Shown: piece by piece, positions 31,443 to 36,776 of the stretch
How positions within the stretch are numbered: position 1 is the first letter of the stretch
Layout: each line of letters starts with the position of its first letter
Assembly (NCBI RefSeq): GCF_947331465.1
Contig: NZ_CAMZOK010000002.1
Span: 434,001 to 498,000, forward strand
Source: Shimia sp. Alg240-R146
GTDB lineage: Bacteria; Pseudomonadota; Alphaproteobacteria; Rhodobacterales; Rhodobacteraceae
Length of the DNA stretch: 64,000 nt
Direction: 5' to 3'
Notes under the pieces: model-generated
What the model saw: the letters and a program-made list of their open reading frames with translations, nothing else
What the model was told of the DNA's origin: nothing
Databases searched by the model: none
Translations under genes and position numbers: made by a program

Positions 31443-31552
31443 CCCTTTGGACGAAACATATTGTTTCCAAATGGGAATTTGACAGTTTCCAACTTAAAGT
31501 CTTAATCTTATTTTTGACTAATTGTTTGTGCAGCCGCCGGAGCGAGTGATTG

Positions 31553-31855
31553 ATGAAACGTATTACCTTTTTGGCCGTTGCGGCCGTTATGGCTGCGGGA
31601 GCGCCAGCGATGGCGCAAACCTGGAGCAGCAACGCCCCACAGTTGGCCCCTGTGAACCAACCGGAAGGACTGCTGGTGCATCCCTTTCCGTCAGGCGCAA
31701 ACCATTGCCCAACCGGATTGCAGCCAATCACCATGGGGGGTGTCATTTGCTGTGGCACACCAAACACGTCAGAGGCCTACGTCAACCGCTCGGGTGGCAA
31801 TCGTCGCAGCCATGCTCCGATGAGCTGCCCTCCGGGCCAAAAAGGCTGTGGCTGA
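31553..31855 (+). CDS. Small cysteine-containing exported protein
   Basis: A 100-residue protein with signal peptide MKRITFLAVAAVMAAGAPAMAQ. The mature sequence has five cysteines, in HCPTG, ICCGTP, SCPPG and KGCG, and is rich in Ser, Asn, Gly and Pro. The start could be TTG 31550 or ATG 31553, and ATG is preferred. Paired cysteines point to disulfides or metal binding in the periplasm. No family is recognised. Confidence 0.7.
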   Translation: MKRITFLAVAAVMAAGAPAMAQTWSSNAPQLAPVNQPEGLLVHPFPSGANHCPTGLQPITMGGVICCGTPNTSEAYVNRSGGNRRSHAPMSCPPGQKGCG

Positions 31856-33048: not shown

Positions 33049-33564
33049 TCACTTGAGGCGCAGCAGTTTGTCCACCGAGATCGGACCTGCGCCTTTGGCC
33101 ACCAGGACGAACAGCAAGAATATCCACATTGCCCGCTCATCGATCAGGGTTTGGGAGTGATCAAACAGCGCCCCAAGCTTTACATTGTGCCCCAAAACGT
33201 CCGCGGCCGTTTGCACTACAACAAAGCCGATCATGCCCAACGCAGCGAGGCGGGTGAGCAACCCAATTAGCAGCAAAACCGGCAGCACGAATTCGGCCAC
33301 GGTGCCAAAAAAGATCACTATCCGTTGAAAAAAGCTCATTTGGCTGACGTCCCACAGCACGGCTTCGGCGGCTTTCGGGAAAATCTGACCAAAGGCACCC
33401 GCCGACGCGGAAAAAATCGATCCGTCGATTTTGAGCGTGGCTGAGTTCCAGTAATAGACAAACAGGACAGCGACAAAGGTGACGCGCGCAAGGGTCGGAA
33501 CGATCCAGTTTTGGTCATCAAGGCGGTCTGCCAGATCATTGTGAAGTGTAATCGGGTTTATCAT
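33049..33564 (-). CDS. DoxX family membrane protein of the bufferin operon
   Basis: A 171-residue protein with four membrane segments (for example VTFVAVLFVYYWNSATLKI, IVIFFGTVAEFVLPVLLLIGLLTRLAALGMIGFVVVQ). The DoxX/DoxD-type fold is the same as GigT of the Cupriavidus gigPABT cluster. It is last in the order bufA1-bufB-bufC-doxX and may help reduce or transport quinone or thiol compounds during modification or copper delivery. I start at ATG 33564 with GGAGG just upstream; an ATG four codons earlier is possible. Confidence 0.85.
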   Translation of the reverse strand: MINPITLHNDLADRLDDQNWIVPTLARVTFVAVLFVYYWNSATLKIDGSIFSASAGAFGQIFPKAAEAVLWDVSQMSFFQRIVIFFGTVAEFVLPVLLLIGLLTRLAALGMIGFVVVQTAADVLGHNVKLGALFDHSQTLIDERAMWIFLLFVLVAKGAGPISVDKLLRLK

Positions 33565-33593
33565 GAAACCTCCCATGCGGTCCGTTTGTTTTG

Positions 33594-34346
33594 TTATTCC
33601 GTGAGTGTGAGGGATGTGATCGCATTGCCTGCGAGCAACAGGGCGAGCAAAGCGCCAAGGTCAAAGTCTTGCGCCGCCTCTGAGCCTTTGGCGGCCGCAT
33701 CGCCCAGCGGAACGCCGGCCTTGAGGGCAGTCAGGCAAGCAAAACCACCTGCGGATAGGGCATGCGGTTTGGGGTCAAATTCGGTCCGGGTGATCAGCAC
33801 ATCTTGGGCAATGGCGTCGGGTTTGGGGCCGTCGGCCATGTTAAACGCCCAAATTGCATGAACAGGCCATGGGGATTGCAGGGTTTCGACGGCTGGCGCA
33901 AAGGTCATGACAACGTTGCCAAGCTGCTCGGGTGCAATGGCGGCCAAGGCGTCAGGCGCGATGGGCGCGGCATCTGCGGCGTGATAGGCGCGGCGCAGGG
34001 CGAGTTCCAATCGGGCCACATCCGCGAGGTAGCCGAGGTGTTGCAGTGGTGCAAAATCGGCGAGGAATTCCGGAAACCCCGCGCCGTAGTGCATCATCAA
34101 AGGCGACGCAGGCGGGGATTGGCGCAGAAAAACGCCAGCAATGGCGGCGAAGTTTTCCTCACCCAACAGTTTGGCGATGGTCGGGAAACCGGTTGCCAGC
34201 GCGTCGGTCAGCGATACCGCCACGTTGTTGCGATAGACGTCAAAGCGGCGTCCCGCGGCCCGGCTTTTGTCATCGACAAGACCCAAAGGGCGATCCCGTG
34301 CGCCGTCAAGCAACGCACCGCGAAATTCGGTTTGTGAGACAATCAT
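33594..34346 (-). CDS. bufC: DUF2063 protein, MNIO partner (BufC)
   Basis: A 250-residue protein beginning MIVSQTEFRGALLDGARDRPLGL. It has the DUF2063 N-terminal block (RFDVYRNNVAVSLTDALATGFPTIAKLLGEENFAAIAGVFL, SPLMMHYGAGFPEFLADF) and ends ALLALLLAGNAITSLTLTE. In bufferin and related RiPP pathways this protein partners the MNIO enzyme and recognises the precursor. It overlaps the bufB stop (ATGA-type), so translation is coupled. The name DUF2063 'DNA-binding domain' is historical; no DNA role is implied here. Confidence 0.9.
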   Translation of the reverse strand: MIVSQTEFRGALLDGARDRPLGLVDDKSRAAGRRFDVYRNNVAVSLTDALATGFPTIAKLLGEENFAAIAGVFLRQSPPASPLMMHYGAGFPEFLADFAPLQHLGYLADVARLELALRRAYHAADAAPIAPDALAAIAPEQLGNVVMTFAPAVETLQSPWPVHAIWAFNMADGPKPDAIAQDVLITRTEFDPKPHALSAGGFACLTALKAGVPLGDAAAKGSEAAQDFDLGALLALLLAGNAITSLTLTE

Positions 34347-35200
34347 GCCGGCACCTTGGCCAGCGCCTGGGTGGCGCGGGTGGCTTCGGCGTGCAGGACG
34401 GGCCAGTCAGGCACATCATTGTCCCACTCAATCAGGATCGGGCGTGGGCCAGACAGGGCGAGCGTGTGATCCAGAAGGGCCCAGACCGGATCCACAATGG
34501 CCTTGCCGTGGCTGTCGATCAACAGGGGGCTGCCGTGATCATCTTCGTCTTCGTCGTGGCCGCCGAGGTGGATTTCCCAAACTTTATCAAGTGGGTAGGC
34601 GTCAATGTAGTCCTTGGGATCGGTATGCAGATTGGTGGCAGACACAAAGACGTTGTTTACGTCGAGCAGGAGGCCACAGCCAGAACGGTTGGCCACTTCA
34701 CGCAGGAAGTCAGGTTCCGACCATGTGGATTCGGAAAAGGCGAGGTAGCTGGACGGGTTTTCCAGCATCATCTGACGGCCAATTGTGTTCTGAAGCTGGT
34801 CGATGTGATCAGCTACGCGGGTCAATGTCGCTTGGGTATAGGGCAGAGGCAGCAGATCGTTGAGAAATGCGCCGTCATGCGTGGACCATGCGAGGTGTTC
34901 AGAAAATACTGTGGGATTGAGCCAGCCAACGAGGTGCTTGAGGCGCGAAAGATGTTCGGGATCAAGCGGGCCTTCGCCACCGATGGACAGGCCAACGCCA
35001 TGCACGGAGATCGGAAATCGTTCTGAGAGGTGGCGTAGTTGGGCCAAAGGCCGGCCTCCGGCGCCCATGTAGTTTTCAGCGTGTATTTCGAGCCAGCCAA
35101 CGTCGCCTGGATCGGTTGTCAGAGCCGAATAATGCTGAGGTTTGTAGCCAACTCCGGGGCGGTTGGGCAATTTCGCAAAGCGCGGTGCATCATCCAGCAT
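34343..35200 (-). CDS. bufB: Multinuclear non-heme iron oxidase (DUF692), bufferin synthase
   Basis: Starting at ATG 35200 (GGAG eight bases upstream) gives a 285-residue TIM-barrel enzyme of the MNIO/DUF692 family. Metal-ligand motifs are present in order: HGVGLSIGG (H67), SEHLAW (E101, H102), LENPSSYL (E147), LLDVNNVFV (D180, N182), EIHLGGH (H211, H215), DSHG (H231) and EWDND (E258, D260). MNIOs oxidise precursor cysteines; BufB makes thiooxazole-type groups. The frame continues upstream to 35401 without support. It is translationally coupled to bufC. Confidence 0.93.
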   Translation of the reverse strand: MLDDAPRFAKLPNRPGVGYKPQHYSALTTDPGDVGWLEIHAENYMGAGGRPLAQLRHLSERFPISVHGVGLSIGGEGPLDPEHLSRLKHLVGWLNPTVFSEHLAWSTHDGAFLNDLLPLPYTQATLTRVADHIDQLQNTIGRQMMLENPSSYLAFSESTWSEPDFLREVANRSGCGLLLDVNNVFVSATNLHTDPKDYIDAYPLDKVWEIHLGGHDEDEDDHGSPLLIDSHGKAIVDPVWALLDHTLALSGPRPILIEWDNDVPDWPVLHAEATRATQALAKVPA

Positions 35201-35256
35201 GTCAGGTCTCCGGTCGTGGCGGTGTTGAGGAGAAAAGTGCATCCCTGTGTGAGTAA

Positions 35257-35288
35257 AGAGGCCCCGGGGGGATGAACCCGGAGCCTCT
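35257..35288 (-). terminator. Hairpin between bufA1 and bufB
   Basis: On the minus strand a 12-bp stem, AGAGGCTCCGGG paired with CCCGGGGCCTCT with one mismatch, closes an 8-nt loop, and TTACTC follows. It lies after the bufA1 stop (35301) and before the bufB start (35200). It could attenuate transcription or protect the bufA1 message, making more precursor peptide than enzyme. Confidence 0.7.
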
Positions 35289-35300
35289 GATTGGGTTAGA

Positions 35301-35603
35301 TCAACCCGGGATGTCACGCTCCAGAGCTTCCAGAGAACCCATGCGTGCGCCACCATCGGCCATCGCAGGAATTTCCATGTCTGCACAGGTGCCCGCGTCA
35401 ACCAGTTTCCAGGCGTTGCCCTGGTAATCTACGGTCGAGGTGCCGGCGCATGTGGTGCCTGGGCCTGCGGCGCAATCATTTTCGCCAGCCAGAGAAACGC
35501 CATAGCATTTCTCTTTTTCAGCGGCGACTGCGGTGGTTGCGTGGGCGGCCAGTGCGGTTGCGACGGCGCCAGCAACGGCGAGAGTTTTTACGGTGTTGGA
35601 CAT
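35301..35603 (-). CDS. bufA1: Bufferin precursor peptide BufA1 (DUF2282)
   Basis: ATG 35603 (or 35609) opens a 100-residue precursor with a signal peptide (about 1-28, ...TTAVAA). The mature part has four cysteines, C33, C44, C52 and C73, in [24 protein letters not shown] and VDAGTC, and the block [14 protein letters not shown]. This is DUF2282, the substrate of bufferin MNIO enzymes. In characterised bufferins, cysteines are converted to copper-binding heterocycles and the product is exported to the periplasm. The order after it, bufB-bufC-DoxX, supports this reading. Confidence 0.93.
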
Positions 35604-35753
35604 CTTCATTTCCCTTTCGGTGTTGAACTCGGCCAGGCGTTTCTGCCTTGGCATGTCTCAACACTAGGGTTGCCAAGCTGTAACGCGCCAATCACACGCG
35701 TGTGTGCCACAGGTATGTTATCGGTTGTAACAAAGAGAAAACGCGGCCCGCTA

Positions 35754-36776
35754 TCAGCGCAGAAGAGACGCCTCGCGAGGCCGCAACATCACGCGGGCAG
35801 AGGTGTAGCGCGGCGCGACGTCGTCAAAAAAGCCGGGGCGCAAGGCGTTGATTTCCGCTTTTTGTTCTTGCGTTAGGATGGTGGCGACTTCTTCGCCCGG
35901 GAATAGGCTTTCGGCCCATATTCCTTGGGCTTTGAGCAGGCCGTGGCGTTCAAGTAGGATGTGGAAATAGGTGATCGTCTGAGCCGCGCTGTCGGTTTTG
36001 ATGGCGTGATCATTGATCAGGGACTTGATTGGAACCAACACCTCGTCTTCACCAAACAGAAGCTCGGCCCGCCAATCCGACAACAGCACCCGATGTTGCG
36101 GAGACAGCCGGAGATCGGCACTGGGACGGCCCATGCCCAACGCGTCTTTGGTGACAACAACGGGGCGCAACTGGCGATTGTTACAAAGATCAAAGGCCGA
36201 GAAATGGCGGGAGCCGATCCACAAAATGCGGTCTGTGCCCTGTTCTGTAACAATTTCATCGCCTTCGCGCAGCGACTCGATGGCGCAATCACCGGAGGGA
36301 GTCGCAACCCGTGTGCCTTGGGCAAAGCAGATGGTGTCGTAAGGATCAACCGGGCCGTCGCTGATTCCGCCAAAAGTGACGGTCTGGCCGGGCGTGATCG
36401 GGGATGTGGTGAACACCACGAGGTTGCTACCGGAGTTGGACGTGCCAGTGCCGATACGGCCGATGATGAACGTGATTGGCGGCACATCTTCGGTAATAAC
36501 CTGATACTCGCTTTCGATATTACTGCCGGCCGGGTAGGTCACACCGCCAATCGTCAGATCATTGGTGAGAACCGACAATGTGCCGGTCTCGATATAGGCG
36601 TCTTCCAGTTGGTCGTCGTCATCGGTGATGTAAAAGCTGAGCTGGTCCGCGCCGGCGTCAAGCGTTGTGGAGGTACCAACCAGGCCGCTGCCTGTCGTCC
36701 CTGTTGCATCCGCGGCCAAAGCGCCGGAAAAATCCTCCAACGCCCACCCTGAAACCAAATAATCCGGCATACCCAC
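35754..36776 (-). CDS. Hint-domain protein
   Basis: A 340-residue protein with a C-terminal Hint (hedgehog/intein) domain. DTICFAQGTRVATPSGDCAIESLREGDEIVTEQGTDRILWIGSRHF starts at about C150, and LRLSPQHRVLLSDWRAELLFGEDEVLVPIKSLI carries the conserved histidine. The N-terminal 145 residues are acidic and beta-rich. Roseobacters encode many such Hint_2 proteins, often secreted by type I systems; whether this one self-cleaves is unknown. The first ATG of the frame is used; a second, two codons on, is equally possible. Confidence 0.88.
   Translation of the reverse strand: MGMPDYLVSGWALEDFSGALAADATGTTGSGLVGTSTTLDAGADQLSFYITDDDDQLEDAYIETGTLSVLTNDLTIGGVTYPAGSNIESEYQVITEDVPPITFIIGRIGTGTSNSGSNLVVFTTSPITPGQTVTFGGISDGPVDPYDTICFAQGTRVATPSGDCAIESLREGDEIVTEQGTDRILWIGSRHFSAFDLCNNRQLRPVVVTKDALGMGRPSADLRLSPQHRVLLSDWRAELLFGEDEVLVPIKSLINDHAIKTDSAAQTITYFHILLERHGLLKAQGIWAESLFPGEEVATILTQEQKAEINALRPGFFDDVAPRYTSARVMLRPREASLLR

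Follow-up and report, generated by a model that had tools for sequence, protein, structure and literature searches.

A bufferin-1 operon in Shimia with a lineage-specific promoter and a putative dedicated regulator in place of sigma-F

By analyzing a stretch of 64,000 nucleotides from the Roseobacter group genome of Shimia sp. Alg240-R146 (hereafter, the window), we found that its minus strand at 33049-35609 carries bufA-bufB-bufC-doxX, very probably a bufferin-1 (captophorin) operon making a copper-chelating modified peptide from a lineage promoter under a putative dedicated regulator, and not under sigma-F. Few groups of modified bacterial peptides are as large as the bufferins and their kin and, to our knowledge, their control is known in outline through ECF sigma factors only. 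The bufferin system itself is already known and well described, and NCBIfam names the enzyme. What is new is that sigma-F has given way to a private double operator throughout the lineage, and that the precursor has a conserved tail and its gene a hairpin behind it. Our literature search found no dedicated study of bufferin, MNIO or DUF2282 in roseobacters.

Results

Identity of the operon

The first-pass annotation had read four genes in one order on one strand, and place, order and strand all proved correct (Table 1). The order bufA-bufB-bufC(-doxX) is the same in all 24 other sampled Shimia genomes and in most Rhodobacteraceae loci, so the four-gene arrangement is far beyond chance. A profile search of the whole genome returned a single MNIO gene and a single DUF2282 gene, both of them in the buf operon.

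The precursor had been described as a DUF2282 protein with four cysteines, and so it is: BufA has 100 residues, with a hydrophobic N-terminus ending in AVAA, then Cys33, Cys44, Cys52 and Cys73, which are invariant in the alignment of family members, and finally the tail. Its N-terminus, about residues 1-27, fits a Sec signal peptide. In the tail, R87, S90, L91, E92, R96, D97 and P99 show the same invariance as the cysteines among 24 family members, and the RD[LIVM]P motif was found in 79 of 80 named Roseobacter loci, a set picked by BufB similarity that includes a few Shimia. The tail is also retained in tandem and orphan bufA copies. A recognition or docking role is possible for it. The AF2 model of BufA was poor (pLDDT 49) and unusable as a test of anything. 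In two loci (L066 in G035 and L272 in G288) the C-terminal tail is longer, with about 15-20 extra residues after RDLP.

BufB passes the NCBIfam BufB equivalog NF050167 (367 bits vs a cut-off of 310) and can be aligned with 3bww, TglH and MbnB, whose structures are solved. The first-pass annotation had credited it with intact ligand motifs and had let its reading depend on a profile search placing the frame in the DUF692 family. The search does place it there, and the MNIO ligand-type residues H67, H102, E147, D180, N183, H211, D229, H231 and E258 are at least 98% conserved among 59 BufB sequences. The HvfB/oxazolin type does not apply, with BufB scoring 237 bits vs the HvfB cut-off of 360 and the precursor belonging to DUF2282, not to the EGKCG type. 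The closest named relative is Shimia sp. SK013, with 94% BufB identity.

The gene for the presumed DUF2063 partner, bufC, overlaps bufB by 4 nt, and its product belongs to that family by profile. A sequence search for solved relatives of BufC returned none. Its AF2 model (pLDDT 92.6) has TglI (8hci/8hi7) and 3dee as best PDB matches (E-values 8e-6 for 8hci and 4e-4 for 3dee), and the modelled fold, a DUF2063 plus an RRE-type domain, resembles that of TglI and 3DEE, which are MNIO partners. BufC scores below the HvfC equivalog cut-off (47 vs 142 bits). The fourth product, also correctly named before, is a DoxX protein with several hydrophobic segments. The earlier identification as a bufferin-type operon thus stands, every defining feature of a bufferin-1 operon that sequence can address being present. 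By analogy with the homologues, the Shimia peptide would bind copper and carry modified cysteines.

Table 1. Features of the buf operon and its promoter (positions in the window).
Feature	Position	Strand	Support
Double operator TAACATACCTGTGGCACACACGCGTGTGA, tandem dyads TAAC-N5-TGTGG then ACAC-N5-TGTGA, 15-bp period	35692..35720	-	0-mismatch pattern match
Predicted -35-like element TTGGCG, directly after proximal dyad	35686..35691	-	TTGG after dyad in nearly all Shimia loci
Predicted -10 box TAGTGT	35661..35666	-	TANNNT at same offset in all Shimia loci
bufA, DUF2282 bufferin-1 precursor	35301..35603	-	PF10048 E 3e-24; alignments; alternative in-frame upstream ATG 35609
BufA C-terminal tail (13 residues)	35307..35345	-	residue conservation, RD[LIVM]P motif
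Hairpin AGAGGCTCCGGG-N8-CCCGGGGCCTCT between bufA and bufB	35257..35288	-	12-bp stem, z -3.6
bufB, multinuclear non-haem iron oxidative enzyme (MNIO, ex-DUF692)	34343..35200	-	PF05114 (MbnB_TglH_ChrH) E 1e-102; NF050167; 3bww E 5e-44
bufC, partner protein, DUF2063 + RRE-type domain	33594..34346	-	PF09836 E 4e-24; AF2 fold
doxX, integral membrane DoxX protein	33049..33564	-	PF07681 25.7 bits vs 23.6; in-frame ATG also 33576

Evolution and surroundings of the locus

DUF2282 was found in 74 of 120 sampled relatives, including every Shimia genome. Since the operon keeps its place between thrS and csp/thyA in Shimia and most of the family, and since the BufB tree holds the genus together, the buf operon is an old resident of an ancestral locus between thrS and thyA and no recent arrival. 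Tandem bufA pairs occur in about half of the Shimia species; Shimia sp. Alg240-R146 has a single copy. Outside Shimia, one locus (L063 in G031) also has a tandem pair, about 56 nt apart and with the hairpin after the second copy, which looks like a separate duplication. Two orphan bufA genes lie off the buf operon (L057 in G005 and L058 in G013, at about 2270-2573 on the reverse strand), with the same four cysteines and RDLP tail and no operator dyad. Among the neighbors, the gene between thrS and bufA, at 35754-36776 (-), encodes a Hint-domain protein (PF13403), of which two close relatives (L036 and L040) retain only fragmentary matches at this place, and a small conserved Cys-containing protein of no clear family, with a signal-like N-terminus, lies at 31550-31855 (+), syntenic beside csp in Shimia.

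Loss of sigma-F/NrsF control

The first-pass annotation had seen no sigma/anti-sigma pair next to the operon and had guessed that its regulation might differ. The first point holds and the second is supported: no such pair adjoins the operon, the whole-genome profile search gave 0 matches to NrsF, and an operon-specific double operator stands in place of the sigma-F promoter. The sigma-F site mapped in Caulobacter, upstream of a DUF2282 gene, is GTAACC-N16-CGAA (PMC3511200). This promoter is absent from the window and from all 45 NrsF- loci, and the sigma-F-type sites of the NrsF+ family loci match it. Counting over 53 family loci (8 NrsF+, 45 NrsF-), we found GTAAC-N15/16-CGAA or CGTA upstream of bufA in 8/8 NrsF+ and 0/45 NrsF- loci (Fisher 1e-9), a pattern that, like the dyad described below, had first been spotted by eye in the loci where it was first counted. 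NrsF status, 12 new NrsF+ loci and a scan of 247 genomes were all collected after the patterns were first seen. The 80 named Roseobacter loci likewise contain no sigma-F site. NrsF and the sigma-F promoter have been lost in this lineage. A thrS-linked buf operon with both NrsF and a sigma-F promoter (L065 in G034) is nested in the NrsF- clade, either by retention or by regain.

The double operator and its promoter

In place of the sigma-F site, the NrsF- loci share an NCAC-N5-YGTGA dyad, and in all Shimia loci a TANNNT box follows 25 bp after it. Among the 80 named Roseobacter loci, 70 have the dyad (0.5 expected in shuffles), 60 of these 70 with TANNNT at +24 or +25; about 10 of the 80 lack the strict dyad. 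The dyad is not confined to loci that have lost sigma-F. First, a single dyad lies just upstream of the sigma-F -35 element in 7 of the 8 NrsF+ loci, by a strict rule applied to a feature first seen by eye. Second, of the 12 new NrsF+ loci, which played no part in defining the dyad, 10 have it before bufA, its start 18-20 bp from GTAAC where a sigma-F site was found. The dyad is absent from sigF-side sites of loci without bufA, and bufABC loci in other families of the class lack it too. By our own calculation from the -10 elements, the dyad centre is near -45 in both promoter types, and near -45 is a usual activator position.

We then asked how specific the double form is, with the pattern TNAC-N5-YGTGR-NNCAC-N5-YGTGA. 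The exact site at bufA is the only match in this genome, and in 24 of 25 Shimia genomes the pattern occurs with 0 mismatches exactly once, at bufA. Scanning 247 sampled family genomes, almost every one from a different genus, we found the exact double operator in 72, at one place per genome, with none of the reversed control pattern among the matches listed. Of 30 sites examined, 28 are at buf operons: bufA is directly downstream by profile in 26, and in two more (L272 and L277) buf genes are beside the site by inspection. The remaining two (L260 and L262) are within chance, L262 (G330) carrying its site at 1501-1529 just before an msrA-like gene. In the genome of Shimia sp. Alg240-R146, a stricter pattern gave nothing beyond chance-like matches and failed to recover the bufA site.

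From this site conservation we infer that a dedicated putative regulator acts at the bufA dyads and outlived sigma-F. Three other candidate features of the region were rejected. As for MerR-type (CueR-like) control, the spacer does measure 19 bp but has no evident dyad. An upstream ORF across the operator is open in the window and, by inspection, stops soon in relatives. Finally, a hairpin in the bufA mRNA 5'-UTR appears as small stems in most single sequences, with no RNAalifold consensus.

The intercistronic hairpin

A comparably strong hairpin follows the precursor gene in 80/80 named loci, always below -18 kcal/mol. In the tandem bufA pairs of Shimia it follows the first copy in 14/14 cases and the second in 0/14 (the paralogues of L034, L037, L039, L041-L043, L045, L048-L051, L053, L055 and L056). 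Its anatomy suggests that it likely acts as a partial terminator or protects the 3' end, so that precursor would be made in excess over enzyme.

Discussion

We propose that BufA would be synthesized with a Sec signal peptide and that, in the cytoplasm, BufB, held to BufA by BufC, would oxidize the central Cys44 and Cys52 to 5-thiooxazoles, while the outer Cys33 and Cys73 would pair as a disulfide. The peptide would then be exported and chelate excess periplasmic copper, with DoxX as a presumptive membrane accessory. This chemistry, export and chelation are modelled on homologues, in which the chemistry and role of bufferins and captophorins are described (PMC12452194; PMC13097082); in Buf1 bufferins it is the central cysteines that carry the modification, and a disulfide joins the outer pair (PMC12452194). 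At the tandem dyads near -45, a putative DNA-binding regulator would switch the bufA promoter in place of sigma-F/NrsF. The hairpin behind bufA would probably favor precursor mRNA over enzyme mRNA. The regulator, its mode of action (read from its position) and what the hairpin does are all suggested by the anatomy of the locus.

The signal may not be copper alone, because the Caulobacter sigma-F work used chromium and cadmium. The same operon and chemistry could have another stress (chromium, cadmium, gold or oxidants) as trigger and main ligand. The homologous Caulobacter operon is induced via sigma-F by chromium and cadmium (PMC3511200), in Cupriavidus both gold and copper elicit a gig response (PMC10304878), and one non-buf double operator precedes the msrA-like gene at L262. 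We consider this unlikely, as characterized bufferins and other captophorins bind copper and help growth under copper stress (PMC12452194; PMC13097082), and a single msrA site in 247 genomes is within chance.

It is quite possible, if short of probable, that an undescribed dedicated regulator operates across the Rhodobacter/Roseobacter lineage at the dyads near -45, ancestrally together with sigma-F, that it kept control after the loss of sigma-F/NrsF and the shift to TANNNT, and that it probably reports excess periplasmic copper. Alternatively, the operon might do without a dedicated regulator, being constitutive or served by transcripts that read through from thrS or from the Hint gene, with the upstream repeats as a remnant. 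In favor of this, thrS or the Hint gene does lie some 150 nt upstream of the operon and in the same orientation, and no regulator gene adjoins the operon. Nevertheless, about 70 genera preserve the repeats with single-site precision and with a -10 box at fixed spacing, unlike a remnant, and the element is single-copy and has no T-run after it, which speaks against both a terminator and a dispersed repeat; we therefore regard this alternative as improbable. Most improbable is a second role for BufC as an autoregulator, binding the operator whenever BufC is free of precursor. In favor of this role, a site of its own implies a protein of its own, and no other product of the operon has an RRE (winged-helix type) domain. 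In addition, the BufC relative NGO1945 (3dee) entered the PDB as a putative transcription regulator, and an association of GigB with DNA has been suggested (PMC10304878). Against it, RRE-type domains bind peptides, NGO1945 has been reclassified as an MNIO partner (PMC12452194), and in other families of the class bufABC loci do without the dyad.

The private operator, which some 70 genera sampled from a dominant marine group retain, is a bait for a new metal-responsive regulator and predicts that bufferins can be induced in the absence of sigma-F. Two more parts open to testing are the invariant tail of BufA and the hairpin behind its gene.

The bufferin-1 operon of Caulobacter vibrioides was reportedly described by Leprevost et al. 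in PNAS in 2024. The Shimia operon is like this one (CC3254-CC3257), with a DUF2282 precursor bearing a signal peptide and four cysteines, an MNIO, a DUF2063 partner and DoxX in the same order (PMC12452194, PMC3511200). They differ in two respects. First, Caulobacter uses sigma-F/NrsF and the GTAACC-N16-CGAA promoter, whereas Shimia sp. Alg240-R146 lacks both and has the double-dyad operator with a TANNNT -10 box. Second, Shimia BufA carries a conserved RxGSLExLxRDLP tail that is absent from the accessible discussion of the Caulobacter bufferin. The operon also resembles gigPABT of Cupriavidus metallidurans, a single operon for a small precursor, DUF2063-containing partner enzymes and a protein related to DoxX (PMC10304878). 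gigPABT is copper-induced through periplasmic signals, and ECF control could not be shown; gig is divergent to rpoQ-rsqA, with control by RpoQ not demonstrated (PMC10304878), whereas the Shimia operon has no ECF/anti-sigma pair nearby. Finally, it shares with the captophorins fontiphorin, oxazolin and gonophorin the pair of an MNIO and PME1 (DUF2063-RRE), with a 5-thiooxazole as the expected product, but their precursors are EGKCG-repeat peptides (PMC13097082) and that of Shimia is a DUF2282 protein.
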